This document shows, in pieces, positions 2-13,964 of a stretch of DNA of 16,291 bases. The stretch is from an uncultured Lysobacteraceae bacterium (GTDB lineage Bacteria; Pseudomonadota; Gammaproteobacteria; Xanthomonadales; Rhodanobacteraceae): contig CAMLLF010000015.1 in the NCBI GenBank assembly GCA_946480705.1, positions 1-16,291 of the forward strand, read 5' to 3'. The notes under the pieces were generated by a model. That model did no database searches and was not told where the DNA came from. It saw nothing but the letters and a program-made list of their open reading frames with translations. Position numbers and translations under genes: made by a program. How positions within the stretch are numbered: the first letter of the stretch is position 1; each line of letters opens with the position of its first letter.

Positions 2-439
2 GCCTCGCGCATCGTCGCGCGGCACGCGCAGCGCATCGAAGGCGCGGCCGACGACGAGCCGTGCCACAGCCTGTTCCCCGACGCGCGCGTGTTCGTCGAC
101 GCCGATTTCGACGGCCTGGGACTCACCGGCGCGCGCATCGCGACGCTGCGCGCGCTCGCGCAGGCGGTCGTCGCGGGCGAAGTCGATTTCGATCCGGCGC
201 AGGGCACCGCGCGTTTCGTCGCGCGCTGCACCGCGGTGCGCGGCATCGGCGACTGGACCGCGCACTACATGGCGATGCGCGCGCTGCGCGACCCGGATGC
301 GTTCCCGGCCGGCGACATCGTGCTGCGCAAGGTGCTGCAGCCGGGCACGACGCTGAGCGCGAAGGAGCTGGAACGGGCGAGCCAGCCCTGGCGTCCGTTC
401 CGTGCGTATGCGGTACTGCTGCTGTGGCGCGCGGCCTGA
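2..439 (+). CDS. alkA: DNA-3-methyladenine glycosylase II (AlkA family), C-terminal part
   Basis: This is the 3' end of a gene that starts before the window; 145 codons are visible and the frame is open from base 2. The family removes alkylated bases such as 3-methyladenine, the first step of base-excision repair in the cytoplasm. The visible part holds the helix-hairpin-helix and catalytic loop of the HhH-GPD fold: a GIGDWTA hairpin at about 241-263, then FPAGD, whose Asp (codon 314-316) aligns with the catalytic Asp238 of E. coli AlkA. The tail WRPFRAYAVLLLW matches the conserved end of the family. A GTG at 89 is an internal Val codon, not the start. The ogt gene follows 24 bases downstream on the same strand, so the two probably form an alkylation-repair operon. 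In related bacteria such proteins are often fused to an Ada N-terminal regulatory domain; whether that holds here cannot be seen. Confidence 0.88.
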   Translation, partial: ASRIVARHAQRIEGAADDEPCHSLFPDARVFVDADFDGLGLTGARIATLRALAQAVVAGEVDFDPAQGTARFVARCTAVRGIGDWTAHYMAMRALRDPDAFPAGDIVLRKVLQPGTTLSAKELERASQPWRPFRAYAVLLLWRAA

Positions 440-463: not shown

Positions 464-979
464 ATGCGCGACGACGAACTGGTCTACGACATTGCGCAGA
501 CGCCGATCGGCCCGCTGCTGCTCGTCGCGAGCACGCGCGGCGTGCGGCGCATCGAGTTTCCGCGCAACGGCCGCGTGGTCATGCCCGACGTCGGCCTGTG
601 CCGCGACGAAGCGCGTCTCGCCGACGCGGTTGCGCAACTGCACGCGTATTTCGCCGGCGAACGTCTCGACTTCGATTTCGCGCGCGACGCGGTCGGCACG
701 CCGTTCCAGCACGACGTCTGGAACGCGCTCCGCGAGATTCCGCTCGGCGAGACCGTCAGCTACGGCGAACTCGCGCGACGCCTCGGCCGGCCGAACGCAA
801 GCCGCGCGGTCGGTGCGGCCAACGGCGCGAACCCGCTGCCGATCGTCGTGCCCTGCCATCGCGTGATCGGCAGCAACGGCAACCTGACCGGCTTCGGCGG
901 CGGCCTGCCGACGAAACGCTGGCTGCTCGACCACGAACGCCGCCACGCACCAAGGCCAGCGTTCGCGTTGGTTCCGTAG
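464..979 (+). CDS. ogt: Methylated-DNA--protein-cysteine methyltransferase
   Basis: A suicide enzyme that transfers the alkyl group from O6-alkylguanine (and O4-alkylthymine) in DNA to its own cysteine. The 171-residue protein has the family's usual length. The C-terminal domain carries the helix-turn-helix segment (about residues 85-115, with the characteristic SYGELARRLGRP) and the active site PCHRVI with Cys131, followed by GNLTGFGGG. The ATG at 464 sits behind a purine-rich AGAGAGAG tract that can serve as ribosome-binding site. The spacing to alkA (24 bases) and shared purpose suggest one transcript. Oddity: the last codons and the TAG stop lie in the GTAG head of a REP palindrome (see the repeat at 976-1165), so the final residues after the usual LLDHE may be an extension set by that repeat. 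Confidence 0.93.
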   Translation: MRDDELVYDIAQTPIGPLLLVASTRGVRRIEFPRNGRVVMPDVGLCRDEARLADAVAQLHAYFAGERLDFDFARDAVGTPFQHDVWNALREIPLGETVSYGELARRLGRPNASRAVGAANGANPLPIVVPCHRVIGSNGNLTGFGGGLPTKRWLLDHERRHAPRPAFALVP

Positions 980-1165
980 GGCGCAATAACCGAAGGGCAT
1001 TGCGCCATTCGCGCGAAGCCGTCCGGTTTTCGCGCAGCCGTTTGCGCCTTTGCATCGCAGTGAGGCGACGAGGCCAGACCGGACACGGCGCAATGCGCTG
1101 TGCGAATGCCGGCGCAATGCGCTGCGCGAGTGCCGGCGCAATGCGCTGCGCTTATTGCGCCCTAC
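976..1165. repeat. Inverted pair of GTAG-type REP palindromes (REPIN/BIME-like)
   Basis: Two REP-like units face each other. The left one is GTAG at 976-979 followed by a hairpin with arms GGCGCAAT (980-987) and ATTGCGCC (999-1006). The right one, read on the minus strand, is GTAG (1162-1165) followed by the same arms at 1154-1161 and 1135-1142. The outermost 15 bases (975-989 and 1152-1166) are perfect inverted repeats. A shorter inverted repeat, GTCCGGT (1021-1027) with ACCGGAC (1078-1084), lies inside. A 5' GTAG followed by a palindrome is the known hallmark of REPs mobilised by RAYT transposases; no such transposase gene is present here. These elements can end transcripts, stabilise mRNA 3' ends or bind nucleoid proteins; the role here is not known. 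Confidence 0.75.
1087..1158. repeat. Three tandem 24-base copies inside the REP pair
   Basis: Three head-to-tail 24-base units begin at 1087, 1111 and 1135, each starting GGCGCAATGCGCTG. Units one and two differ at two positions; the third changes at its end and becomes the right-hand REP hairpin. This looks like local tandem duplication of one REP arm, so the copy number may differ between strains. Confidence 0.8.
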
Positions 1166-1366
1166 GTTCGCTGCGTGATCTGCCGCCTCGCTCGGACCCG
1201 ATCGATGACATCGCGTGCACAAGTCTGTGGATGAAACGCTGCAGGCGTTGCAGCGCCTCGCTCGCGCCCGGTGTGCGCCGGTCCTCGCCAGAGGCCGGTT
1301 TTGCGCGTCGGAGCGGCCGGCTGTGGATAAGGATCGCGTCGCAGCCGCTGCGATCGCGTTCGCGTA

Positions 1367-1383
1367 TCCACAGCGGCTGTGGA
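1367..1383. repeat. Dyad TCCACAG / CTGTGGA with 3-base centre (copy 1)
   Basis: TCCACAG at 1367-1373 is separated by CGG from CTGTGGA at 1377-1383. It is the first of three dyads of identical design in this gap. The left half also forms a near-perfect DnaA box (GTATCCACA, 1364-1372). Confidence 0.75.
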
Positions 1384-1481
1384 AACCCCCCGTAACAAGC
1401 CTGTGGATGGATTGCTGCAGGCCTTGATACGCCTCGCTCTCGCACGCTTTGCGCAAGAATTCGCCAGCAGTCTCGGCGCTA

Positions 1482-1498
1482 TCCACAGGGCCTGTGGA
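1482..1498. repeat. Dyad TCCACAG / CTGTGGA with 3-base centre (copy 2)
   Basis: TCCACAG at 1482-1488 is separated by GGC from CTGTGGA at 1492-1498. It carries head-to-head DnaA-like boxes CTATCCACA (1479-1487) and TGTGGACAA (1493-1501). Confidence 0.75.
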
Positions 1499-1600
1499 CA
1501 AGCGTGGGAACAAGTCTGTGTACAAGCGCCGCAGCGCGAGTGTCTGCGCGGGCTGTGCCCGCTTTGCGCAGAATTTGCTCAATCCGCCGCGCGGCGTGCT

Positions 1601-1630
1601 GAAAATTATATATAGAAACTAATGTACATG
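1601..1630. other. A+T-rich segment (possible unwinding element)
   Basis: Twenty-four of these 30 bases are A or T, including AAAATTATATATAG, in a window that is about two thirds G+C. It lies between the second and third dyads of the DnaA-box-like array, where an origin's DNA unwinding element could be. It could instead simply be a promoter-like or unselected stretch. Confidence 0.4.
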
Positions 1631-1640
1631 TGCGGTCCGA

Positions 1641-1665
1641 GTTGTCCACAGCCGCTGTGGACAAC
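1641..1665. repeat. Perfect dyad of two DnaA-like boxes (copy 3)
   Basis: The arms GTTGTCCACAG (1641-1651) and CTGTGGACAAC (1655-1665) are perfect reverse complements around a CCG centre. It is the longest and most regular of the three dyads. A second perfect 12-base palindrome, CACAAGCTTGTG, follows at 1672-1683. Confidence 0.85.
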
Positions 1666-1741
1666 TGTGCGCACAAGCTTGTGGATGAAACGCTGCGAGC
1701 CGCATGGCGGCTCGTCTTCGCCCGGATTGCGCGAATCCGCG

Positions 1742-2422
1742 TCAGCAGCCGGCGAGCTTGTCGGCGAGCGCGCGCGCCTCGTTGGCGAGACCGGGGCGTT
1801 CGTCGCGCGATGCGCCGCGCTGGCGCGACAGGTTCTCGTCGAGCTGGCTGCGCAGCGCGCGGCAGGCCTCGGCCGGCACGAGCTGTTCGCAGCGGTCGCG
1901 CACTTCGACATAGGCTGCGGCGATCGCATTCGCGCCGCTGCCGTCGGCAACCGGCGGCCGGTTGAGTTCCGGTGCGGAAACCGTGGCGTTGTCGCCGAGC
2001 GGACTGCCGGGCAGGCCGACGACGCCGGCCGGTACGCGATAGGGCCGCGTCTCCCCGGTTTCGCTGAAATAGACCTTGTCGTTGTCGGCGCGCACGCAGC
2101 GGAACAGCACGGGCGGCGGCGGTCGCGGCGGCGGCGGTGCCGGCATCGCCGGCGGCTCGGGCCGCGCCGGCGCAGCGGCGACGGGTTCATCGGCGGGAAC
2201 GGTGGTGCCGTCCTCGGCGACGATCTCCTCCGGCGGTGGCGGCGGCGCGCGGTCGTACTCGAACGAGCGGCTCTGCTGGTCGCTGCGGCAGGGTTTGTCC
2301 TGGAACGACACCGTCCCGTTGGCGTCGGTGCAGCGATAGCCGGTGTTCGTCGCGGCGGCGGCAGGACCCGCGCTGGCGGCACCGGCGGCGGCGATCAGGA
2401 GCAGGCGGAGGAGGGTAGTCAT
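1742..2422 (-). CDS. Exported proline-rich DUF4124-like protein
   Basis: A 226-residue protein of unknown function. A signal peptide is visible (hydrophobic residues about 4-22, alanine-rich cleavage region near residue 24), so the product should be periplasmic or envelope-attached. Residues about 29-46 (YRCTDANGTVSFQDKPC) match the pattern of the DUF4124 domain, a small domain common in Proteobacteria whose role is unknown. A proline-rich linker follows (about 59-105), then a second cysteine-containing segment beginning LFRCVRADNDKVYFSETG that resembles a repeat of the first. The C-terminus is polar and helical, with four further cysteines, one being the last residue. The gene is divergent from the threonine aldolase. 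Its stop codon touches the end of the DnaA-box-like repeat array. The start ATG at 2422 has no clear ribosome-binding site but has a TAGAAT box just upstream. Confidence 0.8.
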   Translation of the reverse strand: MTTLLRLLLIAAAGAASAGPAAAATNTGYRCTDANGTVSFQDKPCRSDQQSRSFEYDRAPPPPPEEIVAEDGTTVPADEPVAAAPARPEPPAMPAPPPPRPPPPVLFRCVRADNDKVYFSETGETRPYRVPAGVVGLPGSPLGDNATVSAPELNRPPVADGSGANAIAAAYVEVRDRCEQLVPAEACRALRSQLDENLSRQRGASRDERPGLANEARALADKLAGC

Positions 2423-2431
2423 GGACTGCCG

Positions 2432-2437
2432 ATTCTA
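2432..2437 (-). promoter_or_regulatory. Possible -10 box (TAGAAT) for the DUF4124-like gene
   Basis: On the minus strand TAGAAT ends nine bases before the ATG. Transcription would begin within a few bases of the start codon. No convincing -35 box is seen. It resembles the arrangement in front of rsgA. Confidence 0.35.
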
Positions 2438-2508
2438 CGCCGCCGCCTCGCTTGCGGGACGAGGCGCATGCCGCAATGCTTCGCGCTTTGCCGCCGCGGA
2501 TCCTGTTC

Positions 2509-6402: not shown

Positions 6403-7173
6403 ATGAAAGACAAGAACGAGATCGTCAGCAACTGGCTGCCGCGGTACACCGGCGTGCCGCTGGAGGAGTTCGGCAAGTACGTACTGCTGACCAACTTCAG
6501 CAACTATGTGGAATTGTTTGCAAGGTGGCACAATGTCGAAGTCCGCGGACGCGACAAGGCCATGCCCTCCGCCCACGCCGATGGGCTCAGCATCATCAAC
6601 TTCGGCATGGGCAGCCCGACGGCCGCCACGATCATGGACCTGCTGTCGGCCATCATGCCGCGCGCCGTGCTGTTCCTCGGCAAGTGCGGCGGACTCAAGA
6701 AGAAGAACCAGCTCGGCGACCTGATCCTGCCGATCGCCGCGCTGCGCGGCGAAGGTACGTCGAACGACTATTTCCCGCCCGAAGTGCCGGCGCTGCCGGC
6801 GTTCACGCTGCAGCGCGCGGTGTCCTCGACGGTGCGCGATCACGGCCGCGACTACTGGACCGGCACGGTCTACACGACGAACCGGCGCGTCTGGGAGCAC
6901 GACGACGCGTTCAAGGCCTATCTGCGCCGCACGCGCTGCATGGCGATCGACATGGAAACCGCAACGGTGTTCAGCGTCGGCTTCGCAAACAAGATTCCGA
7001 CCGGCGCGCTGCTGCTGGTCTCGGATCAGCCGATGATTCCCGAAGGCGTGAAGACCGAGGAAAGCGATCGCAAGGTCACCGGCGAATTCGTCGAGGCGCA
7101 GATCCGCATCGGCATCGATGCGCTCAAGGAAATCCGGGACGAAGGGCAGTCGGTCAAGCACCTGCGCTTCTGA
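6403..7173 (+). CDS. amn: AMP nucleosidase, short form
   Basis: Hydrolyses AMP to adenine and ribose 5-phosphate in the cytoplasm, adjusting the adenylate pool. The 256-residue protein is a single nucleoside-phosphorylase-like (PNP/UDP) domain. The visible motifs are FGKCGGLKKKNQLGD, the AMP-nucleosidase-type ALRGEGTSNDYFPPEVPALP, the ribose-binding MAIDMETAT (Glu185) and LLLVSDQPMIPEGVKT with the likely catalytic Asp208. E. coli Amn has about 484 residues with an extra N-terminal regulatory domain; that domain is missing here, as in the short Amn-like proteins of other bacteria. The ATG at 6403 follows GGGGAAAGC, a good ribosome-binding site, and the conserved protein starts there, although the frame stays open upstream. 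It is divergent from the AraC-type regulator and convergent with the small lipoprotein gene. Confidence 0.87.
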   Translation: MKDKNEIVSNWLPRYTGVPLEEFGKYVLLTNFSNYVELFARWHNVEVRGRDKAMPSAHADGLSIINFGMGSPTAATIMDLLSAIMPRAVLFLGKCGGLKKKNQLGDLILPIAALRGEGTSNDYFPPEVPALPAFTLQRAVSSTVRDHGRDYWTGTVYTTNRRVWEHDDAFKAYLRRTRCMAIDMETATVFSVGFANKIPTGALLLVSDQPMIPEGVKTEESDRKVTGEFVEAQIRIGIDALKEIRDEGQSVKHLRF

Positions 7174-7758: not shown

Positions 7759-8529
7759 TCAATAGCGCGGAATCGACGGGTCGATCTGACGCGACCACGC
7801 GTCGATGCCGCCTTCGACGTTGAACACCTGGCGGAAACCCAGGCCGCGGAAGTGCTCGGCCGCGCTGCGGCTCGAATTGCCGTGATGGCAGAGGAAGGCG
7901 AGCGGCTGGTCCTTCGGCAGCGCCGACAGGCGCGCGACGCTGTCTTCATCGAGTACCTGCGCACCGGCGAACGGCGCGGTTGCGCGGTCGTGCGCCGGAC
8001 GCACGTCGATGACGGTGATGTCGCGGCGTTCGAGGCGGGCCTTCAGCGCCTGCACGTCGAGCGGCTGCACCGCCGGCGGCGCGTTCGGGTTCGTGATCGA
8101 CAGGCCGCTGCCCTGTACCGTGTCGACCCAGTCGATCACGATGCCGCGGGCACGCTGTGCGGTCGTCGTATCCATGAGCACGTCGATGCCGTTCGCGTTC
8201 GCGCGGACCTCATGGCCCTCGGCCTCGCGCAGGAAGAACTGGGCCTGGAAGCGCGCGTCGATGCTCAGGTGCAGCGCGGCGTTGCCGGCGTCGGCGAGGC
8301 CCGCGCGCATGGCCTGAGCGGCGGCGTCGGTGATCGTGATGGTCGGGGGCGTGCGGTCGGGCTTGGGCAGGCCGAGCAGGTCGTGCAGCTCGCCGCCGTT
8401 GAGGATGCCGGCCGTGCCGGCGGAAAAGCCGCAGCGCGGCGCATGGCGCGTGCCTTTCATGAACAGCACGATGCGGTTTTGCTGCAGCAGGGAGTCGATA
8501 CGCGAACGGAGTGCGGGGTCGAGATTCAT
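7759..8529 (-). CDS. Grx4-like / IscA-like / rhodanese fusion with a truncated glutaredoxin domain
   Basis: A 256-residue cytoplasmic protein with three parts. Residues 3-43 are the start of a monothiol glutaredoxin, with the Fe-S-binding CGFS motif at Cys33. Residues 63-155 look like an A-type Fe-S carrier (ITITDAAAQAMR..., GIVIDWVD, ITNPNAPP) but lack all three ligand cysteines. Residues 157-256 are a rhodanese domain with TVIDVRP and the active-site loop CHHGNSSR (Cys214). This three-part fusion is known in Xanthomonadales as a Grx4-family monothiol glutaredoxin of about 290-310 residues. Here the sequence passes from GTAGIL directly to NGGELHDLLG, skipping about 45 residues that should include the cis-Pro (TIPQ) and GGSD glutathione-binding segments. 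The frame is intact. It is divergent from the OmpA-like gene. The glutaredoxin activity is probably lost; the rhodanese part looks complete. Confidence 0.85.
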   Translation of the reverse strand: MNLDPALRSRIDSLLQQNRIVLFMKGTRHAPRCGFSAGTAGILNGGELHDLLGLPKPDRTPPTITITDAAAQAMRAGLADAGNAALHLSIDARFQAQFFLREAEGHEVRANANGIDVLMDTTTAQRARGIVIDWVDTVQGSGLSITNPNAPPAVQPLDVQALKARLERRDITVIDVRPAHDRATAPFAGAQVLDEDSVARLSALPKDQPLAFLCHHGNSSRSAAEHFRGLGFRQVFNVEGGIDAWSRQIDPSIPRY

Positions 8530-8739
8530 GGGATTCCGGAAACGGGCAGGTCGCCGCCGATGATAGCGCCCGGGATATGCGGACGCCCGGCGCGACCGGC
8601 AAGGGCCGCCGCGGAGACTGAGGGAAAACCCGCGCTGCCGCGTCGGATTCCTCTGAAAACGGCGCCGTCTGCGTTCGCTTTGCGTGCCCCTTCACGTTTC
8701 CGGCGCACGTTACAGGCTATTTGCAGCGCGCCGCTGCGC

Positions 8740-8745
8740 GATAAT
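8740..8745 (+). promoter_or_regulatory. Possible -10 box (GATAAT) for the OmpA-like gene
   Basis: GATAAT followed by CG lies 45 bases before the ATG. TTGCAG at 8721-8726 is the best -35 candidate but is spaced only 13 bases away. The rest of the 261-base divergent gap shows no further clear site; a TATCAT box at 8560-8565 on the minus strand could serve the Grx-like gene. Confidence 0.35.
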
Positions 8746-8790
8746 CGCGCCCGCTTTTTTTGCCTCGTCCTATGGAGTTGGGAGACCCCT

Positions 8791-11103
8791 ATGCGCCGTT
8801 CGCTGCTCGCCCTGAGCATTTCCCTGGCCCTGTCCGCGGCTGCCGCCCAGGAATCCGCCCCCCCGAGGCCCGAGGCGAACGACCCGAGCATTCCGGTCAC
8901 CTACGTCGGCACGAACGCGCGGGTCAGCCTCGGCGTCAACGACGACGGCGACATCAACGGCGAGGCGCTCGGCATCTTCGGCTTCGACGGCGACTCGGCC
9001 TGGATCGCGCAGCTCTGGCTCGCCGAACACGGCGCCGGCGGCGTGCAGCTCGACTACCACTGGCTGCTCGGCGGCAAGACGCGCGAAGACACGCTCGAGA
9101 ATGCCGACGGCGTCGCCGTCGCGAAAGCCTTCGTCGCCGTCGACCAGAACATCTGGAACGACCGCAAGGCCACGCTCGGCGTCGGCTACGAGAAAAACGA
9201 TTTCTTCATCGACGGCTACGTCTCGGGCGCGCTGACCGGCAGCCGCTTCGTCGGCAGCCGCACGAACACGACGGCGACGACGCTGACCGGCACCGAGAAC
9301 GGCCACGCCTACACGCAGCTCCAGACGACGCGCGTCGTCACCGACGCATTCGAGCATCCCTACGAAAAAGGCATCGGCGTGCGCCTCGGTCGTCACTTCG
9401 ACGAATCGCTGTGGCGCCTGCGCGGGGGCCTCGACTACGAGCGCGGCAAGTACAGTTCCGACCAGACCACGCTGTCGCTCGGTGTGGACAAGTACATTCG
9501 CAACACCGGCTGGAGCGTATCGCTCGATGCCGAAGCGCTGCGCAAGTCCGGCGACTTCGAGACCGACCGGAACGACACGCGCGGCTGGCTCAGCCTGCGC
9601 TACGAATTCGGCCAGGCCTATCGGCCGCGCGCGCCGTTCAAGGTCGAAACCGTCGCCGGCACGCCGCCGGCCGTCGCCGACGTGCAGACGCCCAAGCCCA
9701 CCGTGATTCGCAATGACGTGCGCCTCGACGGCGATGCGTTCTTCGATTTCGACAAATCGGATCTGCGTCCCGACGCGGTCGCGGCACTCGACGAACTGCT
9801 CGCGAAAATCAACGGCACGACGCGCGTGAGCCGCATCACCGTCATCGGGCATACCGACAGCGTCGGCACCGTGGCCTACAACCAGTCGCTGTCGGAGCGT
9901 CGCGCCGCGAGCGCGAAGGCCTATCTCGTCGCGCACGGCGTGCCGGCCGACCAGATCGATACGCGCGGCGACGGCGAACTCAATCCGTCGCACGCGAACG
10001 ACACTGCGGCCAACCGGCAGAAGAATCGCCGCGTCGACGTCGAATTCCTGACGATCGAAGAATCCACCGTGCCGGCCGTCGCGACGAAGCCGGCGCAGCC
10101 GGTCGAGTGGCGGCGCGAACCGGTCGCCGCACCGGCGGCCTGGATCGAGCGCGCGCTGCGCAATCCGGCGCAGCACAAGCGCACGGTCGACGTGTACCGC
10201 TTCGCACGCAGCGCGACATCGACGACGCTGGGTCCGCGCGAGTTCGCGAACACCGGTCCGAACGCGGCCGACGACAGCATCGCGATAGCGCGCGACGCCG
10301 CGGCGACGAGCATTCCGGTGCTCGCCAACGACACCGATCCGGAGAACGATCCGCTGACGGTCGTCGGCACGTCCTCGCCGGCGCACGGCACGGTGACGTT
10401 TACCGCGGGTCAGGTCAGCTACACGCCGGCCGCGGGCTACGTCGGCACCGACAGCTTCACCTACACGATCAGCGACGGCTTCGGCGGCAGCGATACCGCG
10501 ACGGTGACCGTCACGATCGGCAGCGGCGGCAATCGTCCGCCGGTCGCGGCGAACGACACCGCGCAGACGCCGCCGGCGACGCCGGTGCGCATCGCCGTGC
10601 TGGCCAACGACAGCGATCCCGACGGCGACACGCTGTCGATCGCGTCGGTCGGCACGCCGGCTCACGGCATCGCCGTGCGCAACGTCGACGGCACGGTGAC
10701 CTATACGCCGGCCGCGGGTTTCGAAGGCAGCGACAGCTTCAGCTACGTGATCAACGACGGTCGCGGCGGCAACGCGACGGCACAGGTCGCGGTCACCGTG
10801 GCCGCCGGCGCGAATCGTCCGCCGGTCGCGCTCGACGATTCGATCGGCGTGCTCAAGGGCGGCGGGGTCGACATCCCGGTGCTGGCCAACGACAGCGATC
10901 CCGACGGCGACCTGCTGCGCGTGATCGCCGTGGAAAATCTCGGTCCGCACCAGGCGACGCTGACGATCAACGCGAACGGCACGATCCGCTTCGAGCACAT
11001 CCACGGCACGAACGGGCCGGGCCGCATCCGCTACACGGTCACCGACGACAACGGCCACGAGGTCTCGGCCGTCGTCACGGTCAACGTGACCGAGATTCCG
11101 TAA
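8791..11103 (+). CDS. Outer-membrane OmpA-family protein with three C-terminal cadherin/Ig-like repeats
   Basis: A 770-residue envelope protein. Residues 1-19 or 20 form a signal peptide (ends SAAAA before QE). Residues about 30-290 are rich in alternating strands and end with GWLSLRYEFG, as outer-membrane beta-barrels do. Residues about 307-420 are an OmpA/MotB peptidoglycan-binding domain: FFDFDKSDLRPDA, ITVIGHTDSVG, NQSLSERRA and the closing NRRVDVEFL. A charged linker leads to three repeats of about 90 residues starting at 491, 581 and 675. Each has PVLANDxDPxxDxL or its variant and a SFxYxIxDGxGG-like strand, typical of Ca-binding cadherin/VCBS/Big-type domains. The ATG at 8791 has GGGAG six bases upstream. 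The gene stands alone and ends at a strong terminator. The role is probably structural: anchoring the outer membrane to the wall. Confidence 0.87.
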   Translation: MRRSLLALSISLALSAAAAQESAPPRPEANDPSIPVTYVGTNARVSLGVNDDGDINGEALGIFGFDGDSAWIAQLWLAEHGAGGVQLDYHWLLGGKTREDTLENADGVAVAKAFVAVDQNIWNDRKATLGVGYEKNDFFIDGYVSGALTGSRFVGSRTNTTATTLTGTENGHAYTQLQTTRVVTDAFEHPYEKGIGVRLGRHFDESLWRLRGGLDYERGKYSSDQTTLSLGVDKYIRNTGWSVSLDAEALRKSGDFETDRNDTRGWLSLRYEFGQAYRPRAPFKVETVAGTPPAVADVQTPKPTVIRNDVRLDGDAFFDFDKSDLRPDAVAALDELLAKINGTTRVSRITVIGHTDSVGTVAYNQSLSERRAASAKAYLVAHGVPADQIDTRGDGELNPSHANDTAANRQKNRRVDVEFLTIEESTVPAVATKPAQPVEWRREPVAAPAAWIERALRNPAQHKRTVDVYRFARSATSTTLGPREFANTGPNAADDSIAIARDAAATSIPVLANDTDPENDPLTVVGTSSPAHGTVTFTAGQVSYTPAAGYVGTDSFTYTISDGFGGSDTATVTVTIGSGGNRPPVAANDTAQTPPATPVRIAVLANDSDPDGDTLSIASVGTPAHGIAVRNVDGTVTYTPAAGFEGSDSFSYVINDGRGGNATAQVAVTVAAGANRPPVALDDSIGVLKGGGVDIPVLANDSDPDGDLLRVIAVENLGPHQATLTINANGTIRFEHIHGTNGPGRIRYTVTDDNGHEVSAVVTVNVTEIP
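10531..10911. repeat. Intragenic direct repeats in the Ig-like region
   Basis: Repeats two and three of the Ig-like region share an identical 33-base stretch (10597-10629 and 10879-10911), and an identical 18-base stretch at their starts (10531-10548 and 10813-10830). This indicates recent duplication or gene conversion between the modules. Confidence 0.85.
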
Positions 11104-12727: not shown

Positions 12728-13964
12728 GACGCGCCGGCGCGCCGCGTGCGGCGATGCGGCCGAGGCAGCGGTCGATGCGCGTGAACACCTCGTCGATCTC
12801 GCCCGGCTGCGGCAGCAGGGTCATGCGGAAGTGATTGCGTTCGCGGATGTTGAAGCCGCCGCCCGGCACGACCAGCACGCTTTCGGTCTCCAGCAATTCG
12901 AGCGCGAAGTCTTCGTCGTCGAAGTTGTCGAGACGCTGCGTGCGCACCGACGGGAACGCATACAGCGCGCCCTGCGGCGCGATCACATCGAGGAACTCGC
13001 TGCGCGCCACGCCGTCGATGACGGCACGTCGTGCCGCATGCAGCCGGCCACCGTCGCGGACGAGTTCGCTCATGGTGTCCGGGCCGTTCAGCGCGGGCTC
13101 GATCGCCCATTGCGTCGGCACGTTCGCGCAAAGGCGCAGCGCGGAAAGAAGATCCAGCGCGGCGCGGAATTCGCCGAACTTCGCCGGCGCGCCCGACAGG
13201 CTGATCCAGCCGACGCGGTAGCCGCAGGCGCGATGCATCTTCGACAGGCCGCTGTAAGTGATGCACGGCGTTTCGCCGGCCAGTGCGGCGAGCGGATGGA
13301 ACTCGGCGCCGTCGTAGAGGATGCCATCGTAGATTTCGTCGGACAGCAGCAGCAGGCGATGACGCTCGGCGACCTGCACCAGCGCCTGCAGCAGCCCGCG
13401 CGGATAGACCGCGCCGGTCGGATTGTTGGGATTGATCAGCACGAGTGCGCGCGTGCGCGGCGTGATCAGGGCTTCGATCTCGTCGGGATCGGGCAGATGG
13501 TCGCGCGACGCCGGACACGGGTAGTAGCGCGCGCGTCCGCCGTTGAGTACGGTCGCCGCGCTCCAGAGCGGATAGTCCGGGCTCGGCAGCAGTACTTCCT
13601 CGCCGCTGTTGAGCAACGCGCGCAGGGTCAGGTCGATCAGTTCCGACACGCCGTTGCCGATGAATACGTTGTCGGCGTGCGCACCGATCGCGCCGCGGGC
13701 CGCTTCGCGGGCGGCGATCGCTTCGCGCGCCCCCTGCAGACCCTGCTGATGACAGTAGGCCTCGCTGCGATGCAGGTTGGCATTGATGGTGTCGCGCAGA
13801 TGCGCGGGAACGCTGAAACCGAACAGACCCGGGTTGCCGATATTGAGGCGCACGATATGGCGGCCTTCGGCTTCGAGCTCGCGGGCGCGTCGCGACAGAG
13901 CCCCGCGGATCTCGTAACGAACATCACCGAGACGGGAACTGACGGGAACGGTGCGCTGCGGCAT
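12717..13964 (-). CDS. alaA: Alanine/glutamate-pyruvate aminotransferase (AlaA-like)
   Basis: A 415-residue class I/II PLP aminotransferase that closely follows E. coli AlaA (405 residues) along its length. AlaA makes alanine from pyruvate and glutamate. Recognised segments are the N-terminal VRYEIRG and LNIGNP (near 41-45), FIGNGVSELI (101-110), PSPDYPLW (127-134), INPNNPTGAVY (177-187), LLSDEIYDGILYDG with Asp209 and Tyr212, and the Schiff-base Lys242 in YSGLSKMHRACGYRVGW. RLCANVPTQWAI and the C-terminal VPGGGFN are also family-specific. It is cytoplasmic. The ATG at 13964 follows AAGGA at a nine-base distance, and a plausible sigma-70 promoter lies just upstream. The SGNH gene overlaps its 3' end. 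Confidence 0.9.
   Translation of the reverse strand: MPQRTVPVSSRLGDVRYEIRGALSRRARELEAEGRHIVRLNIGNPGLFGFSVPAHLRDTINANLHRSEAYCHQQGLQGAREAIAAREAARGAIGAHADNVFIGNGVSELIDLTLRALLNSGEEVLLPSPDYPLWSAATVLNGGRARYYPCPASRDHLPDPDEIEALITPRTRALVLINPNNPTGAVYPRGLLQALVQVAERHRLLLLSDEIYDGILYDGAEFHPLAALAGETPCITYSGLSKMHRACGYRVGWISLSGAPAKFGEFRAALDLLSALRLCANVPTQWAIEPALNGPDTMSELVRDGGRLHAARRAVIDGVARSEFLDVIAPQGALYAFPSVRTQRLDNFDDEDFALELLETESVLVVPGGGFNIRERNHFRMTLLPQPGEIDEVFTRIDRCLGRIAARGAPARHVA

Follow-up and report, generated by a model that had tools for sequence, protein, structure and literature searches.

Tandem DnaA-box modules resembling DARS cores in the Lysobacterales

In an uncultured Lysobacteraceae bacterium, ogt and a DUF4124 protein gene converge on a gap of 762 bp, which holds an array of predicted DnaA boxes with three complete units of fixed geometry. 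The array lies in a 16,291-nucleotide stretch of contig CAMLLF010000015.1, hereafter the window. The boxes had been remarked upon in an initial annotation made from the sequence; their internal order had not. The array is best explained as a row of tandem DARS-related modules that would bind DnaA and rejuvenate ADP-DnaA, a reading that we hold with slightly better than even confidence. It is based on the predicted boxes, their fixed geometry, the conservation of the array in place, the recurrence of the unit across the order, and an arrangement of boxes I and II identical to the one at E. coli DARS1 and DARS2. Such DARS-related tandem elements have been seen so far only in this order.

To our knowledge, hardly anything is known of how DnaA is recharged in lineages beyond E. 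coli. If the reading is true, DARS-like arrays at recurrent places across one order would amount to a naturally graded set differing in module number and position, and the link of DARS dosage, chromosomal position and initiation timing would become directly testable. In a literature search that had most subscription papers outside its scope, no title concerned DARS or DnaA-box arrays in the Lysobacterales, and nothing paired 'DnaA-reactivating sequence' with 'Xanthomonas'. The same search returned papers on DnaA boxes and replication origins in Xanthomonas, none of which, judged by title, dealt with such arrays.

The DnaA-box array

With up to one mismatch allowed, the DnaA-box pattern TTWTNCACA matches the window 13 times, against 3.69 ± 1.77 matches expected, and none of 200 shuffled sequences reached 13. 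Ten of these matches fall at 1226-1688, on both strands, and the remaining three lie elsewhere in the window. Likewise, ten TCCACA/TGTGGA cores are found within these 460 bp (1226-1688), while in 500 first-order Markov sequences of window length the maximum number of cores per 460 bp averaged 1.21, the largest being 3. The initial annotation had described about ten DnaA-box-like 9-mers in roughly 460 bases, in both orientations and with one of them perfect, and a segment of 80% A+T among them. Both descriptions hold: the perfect box is at 1322-1330, and in the stretch at 1602-1630 24 of 29 bases (83%) are A or T. The lowest-GC 40 bp start at 1597, with 30% GC, and box cluster and A+T-rich stretch are both present in the region. 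The flanking genes were also named correctly, as Pfam identified ogt (6-O-methylguanine-DNA methyltransferase; 464-979, plus strand; Pfam Ogt) and the DUF4124 protein gene (1742-2422, minus strand; Pfam DUF4124). Because the 3' ends of both genes face the array, it lies between convergent gene ends. At 975-1157 the window also carries GTAG-headed inverted repeats (GGGCGCAATAACCG..GGCATTGCGCC), which we take to be REP-like, and then three 24-bp tandem copies (100, 92 and 79% alike).

The array is composed of three complete units, one remnant and one lone perfect box. Unit 1 (1364-1410, plus strand) consists of box I, GTATCCACA, at 1364-1372 (+), a 5-bp spacer, box II at 1378-1386 (-), a degenerate mid segment at 1390-1398 and box III at 1402-1410 (-). 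Unit 2 (1479-1525, plus strand) has box I, CTATCCACA, at 1479-1487 (+) and, 5 bp on, box II at 1493-1501 (-), followed by the mid segment TGGGAACAA at 1505-1513 and box III at 1517-1525, which reads TTGTACACA on the minus strand. Unit 3 (1642-1688, plus strand) is built in the same way from box I, TTGTCCACA, at 1642-1650 (+), 5 bp, box II at 1656-1664 (-), the mid segment TGCGCACAA at 1668-1676 and box III at 1680-1688 (-), and its boxes I and II are held within a perfect 13+13 inverted repeat (1640-1666). The units are spaced 115 and 163 bp apart, and the A+T-rich stretch directly precedes the last of them. The remnant (1217-1298, plus strand) is a copy of an 82-nt repeat in which a site like box III is retained (TCATCCACA, minus strand, 1226-1234), with no box I/II core directly upstream of that site. 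The lone perfect box, TTATCCACA (1322-1330, minus strand), lies outside any complete unit. The 82-nt repeat has further copies at 1393 and 1671, and each shares 71% identity with the copy at 1217.

Geometry of the unit

In the units of the array, box I on the plus strand is followed after 5 bp by box II on the minus strand and, after a further 15 bp, by box III, also on the minus strand. Measured start to start, box II begins 11 bp after box I, and box III another 23-24 bp on; in the window, the cores of boxes I and II start at 1367/1378, 1482/1493 and 1645/1656, and the II-III distance is 24. In seven loci found without a spacing pattern (the window, L001-L003, L005, L006 and L008), each of the 26 convergent core pairs with a separation of up to 20 bp has its starts 11 bp apart, and 21 of the 22 direct pairs within 40 bp are at 23-24 bp. 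These direct pairs argue against chance as the source of the third box. Among 66 sequence-distinct clusters, all 172 convergent pairs within 20 bp lie at 11, and the direct pairs lie at 23 (136), 24 (25), 22 (6) and other distances (3), in agreement with the smaller set; most of these clusters were recruited by a pattern that fixed 11 and allowed 22-26.

The 174 distinct units from the loci analysed have 17 (145 units), 18 (22), 16 (6) or 20 bp (1) between the cores of boxes II and III. In the 145-unit class, the three bases preceding TCCACA of box I, positions outside the search pattern, are T in 93%, 98% and 83% of units. Flanking bases that the pattern left free are conserved as in DnaA boxes and mark box I as one. 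The consensus of box III, including bases outside the search pattern, is [C/T]T[A/G]TCCACA, and box II is weaker in this commoner class (GCATCCACA). The segment between boxes II and III keeps a conserved GG..AAGCC. Its best DnaA-box match, at 11 or 12 bp after box II, averages 5.40 and 5.01 of 9 positions in the 145-unit class and 5.27 of 9 at offset 12 in the 22-unit class, while shuffled II-III intervals give 3.04 and 2.80 at offset 12. Scores are also raised at offsets 10 and 13 (3.36-4.82), and part of the match may therefore be due to an A-rich tract.

The cores of boxes I and II make up an inverted repeat, as would be expected of an RNA hairpin element with TCCACA-N5-TGTGGA as its stem. 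The flanks argue otherwise: the TTT conserved 5' of box I is not complementary to TGC, the commonest triplet 3' of box II, and box III has no partner. A search of window positions 900-2500 against Rfam found no family that reached its gathering score. We regard a hairpin as highly improbable.

Conservation and distribution

Relatives of the locus were found by scanning genomes with the neighbouring threonine-aldolase protein. The scan returned 80 loci, the best matches coming from Tahibacter and from Rhodanobacteraceae/Lysobacterales metagenome bins. Six of the loci (L001, L002, L003, L005, L006 and L008) carry 7-12 cores per 500 bp at the equivalent place, while the other 74 have at most 4. 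In these Tahibacter-type relatives the array again lies between ogt and DUF4124, so that a search for it at the same place in related genomes, as the initial annotation had advised, finds both the array and its neighbours. The 3-kb locus of Tahibacter caeni (L004) has no cores and is uninformative, as it begins only 337 bases before the aldolase. Mizugakiibacter (L012, L211) and L011 have a single unit at the place of the array, with one change in the box III core. The unit spacings of 114-115 and 163-164 bp recur in other Tahibacter-type loci, beside others of 136 to 306. A stretch of 40 A+T-rich bp also precedes the last unit in the six relatives, at 7089 (L001), 1721 (L002), 7107 (L003), 7117 (L005), 7108 (L006) and 7138 (L008); together with that of the window (1597-1636), these stretches have 15-37.5% GC, a similar place and differing sequence.

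When eight Tahibacter-type regions were aligned, the 89 box columns were 88% identical to the window, against 60% for the 447 other columns, a contrast matched in none of 5000 permutations. With the copies of the 82-nt repeat only 71% identical, this bears out the earlier suggestion that the repeats have drifted while the cores were kept. The further suggestion that the array is what remains of an integrated replicon is unsupported, since relatives preserve its location and, in many genomes of the order, units stand between other genes as well.

The family and order genome sets were grouped around Tahibacter soli (G005). The strict unit of the array occurs in 147 of 233 family genomes and is missing from 86, with 0-15 units per genome. 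Among genomes sampled from the order, 186 of 398 have it (by hand count, 102 of 125 family members and 84 of the 273 remaining genomes). A class sample showed it in 3 of 274 genomes, all three of which are also in the order sample. The largest clusters hold up to 20 cores per array.

Two places at which arrays recur could be identified. The first is beside DUF4124, as in the window, and DUF4124 homologues adjoin arrays in 12 further family loci. The second is between an accD-like gene and a PAP2-family gene (identified by Pfam in L138 and L163 and by eye in L143), where several genomes have a second array about 4 kb away. In L138, this second array adjoins trpF on the far side of trpA, trpB and a LysR-type gene; the twin arrays, at 8187-8987 and 13093-13752 (G056:C1:3654186-3659751), flank the block of accD, trpA, trpB and the LysR-type gene. 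Twin arrays about 4 kb apart are also present in L140, L144-L146, L150 and L153. The arrays at the second place in L138, L143 and L163 lie, like that of the window, between convergent gene ends, and since no promoter would be expected there, an operator role for the array is unlikely.

Some units are dispersed within a genome. G052 has nearly identical single units at four places (at most one difference in 40), and G057 has similar units at two (36 of 40 alike), which suggests recent duplication or movement. Such copies are what a dispersed mobile repeat of the REP/BIME kind, containing TGTGGA by chance, would leave behind. Against this explanation, the array has the same neighbours in the six Tahibacter-type loci, DUF4124 homologues recur in the 12 further family loci, and conservation is concentrated in the box columns. 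A mobile repeat therefore seems decidedly improbable.

A separate canonical core

A core closer to that of E. coli was sought with the strict pattern I-5-II-3..5-III. This canonical DARS core was found in 208 of 233 family genomes, 25 being without a strict core; it is present once in 207 genomes and twice in G152, with identical matched letters on two contigs. It also occurs in 116 of the 274 class genomes. Reversed-pattern controls for both the unit and the canonical core gave 0 matches. The canonical core is broadly distributed, and the tandem variant is seen only in the order.

In all five Tahibacter copies examined an IHF consensus lies 121 bp from canonical box I on the same strand (four exact, one with one mismatch), there being 13 such matches in the 22.4 kb of the five loci altogether; as these copies are close kin, their agreement is not independent. 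Of five other canonical copies from the family, three have an IHF consensus at 115-122 bp and two have none within 260 bp. The canonical core in 208 of 233 genomes and the IHF consensus at a fixed distance make it very likely, as judged from sequence, that bacteria of the family possess a DARS system.

In T. soli the canonical core stands 10.7 kb from the array, flanked by genes for a sigma factor and an M19 dipeptidase. The unit nearest to the canonical core is 6.5-15.5 kb away in 23 further genomes of the family (counted by hand among the matches listed). This nearness is not universal: among the matches listed, G078, G149 and G163 are examples of genomes in which a long distance separates the two, and in G001-G004, G060 and G062 unit and core fall on separate contigs.

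Chromosomal position

Dense boxes and an A+T-rich stretch are features of a replication origin, and the initial annotation had raised an unusual chromosomal origin as one possibility. However, the array is 800 kb from dnaA in T. soli and 895 kb in G230. With a search pattern that we take to represent dif, dif was located 46-51% of the circle from dnaA in eight family genomes (G056, G057, G064, G071, G075, G078, G194 and G215) and 55.6% of the contig from it in G149; the pattern was not found in G230, G163 or G005. For contig C18 of G005, GC skew from 20 samples of 20 kb proved too noisy, so G230 was sampled instead (40 samples of 20 kb). In G230 the switch is best placed at 500-550 kb by GC skew and at 600-650 kb by KOPS (114 sites); dnaA lies at position 455 kb, and the array, located at 1.350 Mb, is separated from it by 13.9% of the contig. 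The initial annotation had proposed to look for a skew minimum at the array; in this relative the sampled switch is nearer dnaA. A perfect divergent box pair stands beside dnaA in all six Tahibacter-type genomes examined (G001-G005 and G230). The pair, TGTGGATAA, 26 bp, TTATCCACA (L082-L086; G230:C1:455020-455063), has few other boxes around it and makes a sparse origin candidate.

As judged in relatives, the array has neither the skew switch, nor a dif opposite it, nor a place beside dnaA, and as an origin it was rejected on dnaA distance, dif and skew. Many family genomes, moreover, carry units at several places. An origin here, alternative or main, would be exceedingly improbable, and because units recur in many members of the order, a role in replication timing is likelier than a second origin.

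Canonical cores lie 10.6-23.2% from dnaA in G005, G056, G057, G064, G071, G075, G078, G149 and G163, and E. coli DARS2 is at 20.6%. Arrays away from the canonical core lie at 34-47% in G056, G057, G064, G071, G075, G078, G149, G163, G194 and G215, with one further array of G057 at 26.8%, and E. coli DARS1 is at 33%; the family figures were computed among the matches listed, with gene context checked in G056 only. Unit orientation follows the replication fork in 12 of the 13 genomes in which units and dnaA share a contig (G005, G056, G057, G064, G071, G075, G078, G156, G163, G194, G215 and G230, the arm being assigned without dif in G005, G163 and G230, and only the first of 11 listed units and four more in L146 being placed in G071). 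G149 is the exception. The neighbouring genes may explain this orientation.

Proposed function

If the functional reading is right, the array acts in a DARS-like manner. DnaA would bind the boxes of the array, and ADP-DnaA molecules on boxes I and II would come together head-to-head in the manner of E. coli DARS and shed their ADP. Several modules in a row would raise the capacity for reactivation, and their distance from the origin would set module dosage in time. Several observations count against this reading: boxes II and III are 23-24 bp apart and not 12, the mid box is weak, as is box II in the commoner class, no IHF consensus (up to one mismatch) was found in window 1150-1800, and the strict unit is missing from 86 of the 233 genomes.

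The main rival is a locus that titrates DnaA, in which the boxes would soak up the protein and delay initiation and the geometry would reflect cooperative binding of DnaA dimers only. The large number of boxes in an array (up to 20 cores) and the variation in unit number between genomes (0-15) would suit such a role. In the available part of the respective sources, DnaA of E. coli is argued to be titrated on the chromosome (PMC12371093), and datA-analogous clusters of B. subtilis and Streptomyces are described as repressing untimely initiation (PMC5742627). Yet an invariant 5-bp convergent spacing would not be needed for plain titration, the closest convergent pair of E. coli datA is spaced differently, and canonical DARS cores with the same I/II geometry are present in most family genomes. 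Titration in place of reactivation is in our view rather unlikely, if a good deal more plausible than an origin, a mobile repeat or a hairpin. Reactivation and titration may both be true together; some titration by the boxes likely accompanies reactivation, and it could be the main effect of the array.

More tentatively, and with less than even confidence, the reading of the array as DARS-related modules can be extended to the order. The Lysobacterales would then possess a canonical DARS core and, in addition, lineage-specific multi-module arrays that reactivate DnaA, each made up of roughly 1 to 6 strict units of the form I-5-II-[weak box]-III in tandem and sited at recurrent positions on the chromosome, and initiation would be tuned by the number of modules and their distance from oriC.

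Comparison with DARS1, DARS2 and datA

In E. coli two DARS sites are known, each with one core. The boxes of DARS1, DARS2 and datA were read from the MG1655 genome. In both DARS cores, box I is separated from box II by 5 bp and box II from box III by 3 bp, and box III is oriented as box II. The DARS2 box pair lies upstream of mutH, and none lies between mutH and ygdQ. The accessible text of PMC5742627 likewise gives DARS1 and DARS2 identical spacing with box I opposing boxes II and III, and the double boxes recorded for both sites in the part seen of PMC11317965 agree with the MG1655 reading. According to the available text of PMC8682772, ADP-DnaA can dimerise head-to-head on boxes I and II, which are opposed, and the dimers lose their ADP. 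The same text and the available portion of PMC4245941 describe the DARS2 core as conserved among gamma-proteobacteria related to E. coli, and the latter reports that moderate activity remains when the IHF sites of DARS2 are shifted 10 bp away.

The initial annotation had offered a DnaA-controlling locus similar in purpose to datA as one reading. The kind of locus stands, while the likeness to datA does not, the box geometry matching DARS instead. Like the array, datA is an intergenic DnaA-box cluster away from oriC. Its boxes are arranged differently, the closest convergent pair (up to one mismatch per box) having 3 bp between the 9-mers, and it acts with IHF bound between the boxes, as stated in the accessible part of PMC5742627. 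The array has neither this box order and spacing nor an IHF consensus, and likeness to datA was rejected on box arrangement. The 'double DnaA box' of E. coli, a direct pair 2-3 bp apart in the available text of PMC11317965, has a partial counterpart: the mid segment shares its register with boxes II and III, but is degenerate (about 5 of 9 matches).

DARS2 has the same I/II geometry as the array. Its IHF consensus lies 109 bp from box I (one mismatch), as compared with 121 bp at the canonical core of Tahibacter, while the array has neither an IHF site at a fixed distance nor the 12-bp II-III spacing. DARS1, in the bioD-uvrB intergenic region, is like the array far from oriC and has no IHF consensus (up to one mismatch) nearby. 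In both, boxes I and II are convergent with exactly 5 bp between the 9-mers, and box III is oriented as box II. In contrast, DARS1 has one core with boxes II and III 12 bp apart start to start, while the window has three complete units with 24 bp, most arrays 23-24 bp, and a degenerate box-like segment 12 bp after box II. Because this II-III spacing differs, we do not class the array as a DARS, despite its sharing with DARS1 and DARS2 the opposed boxes I and II and the orientation of box III.
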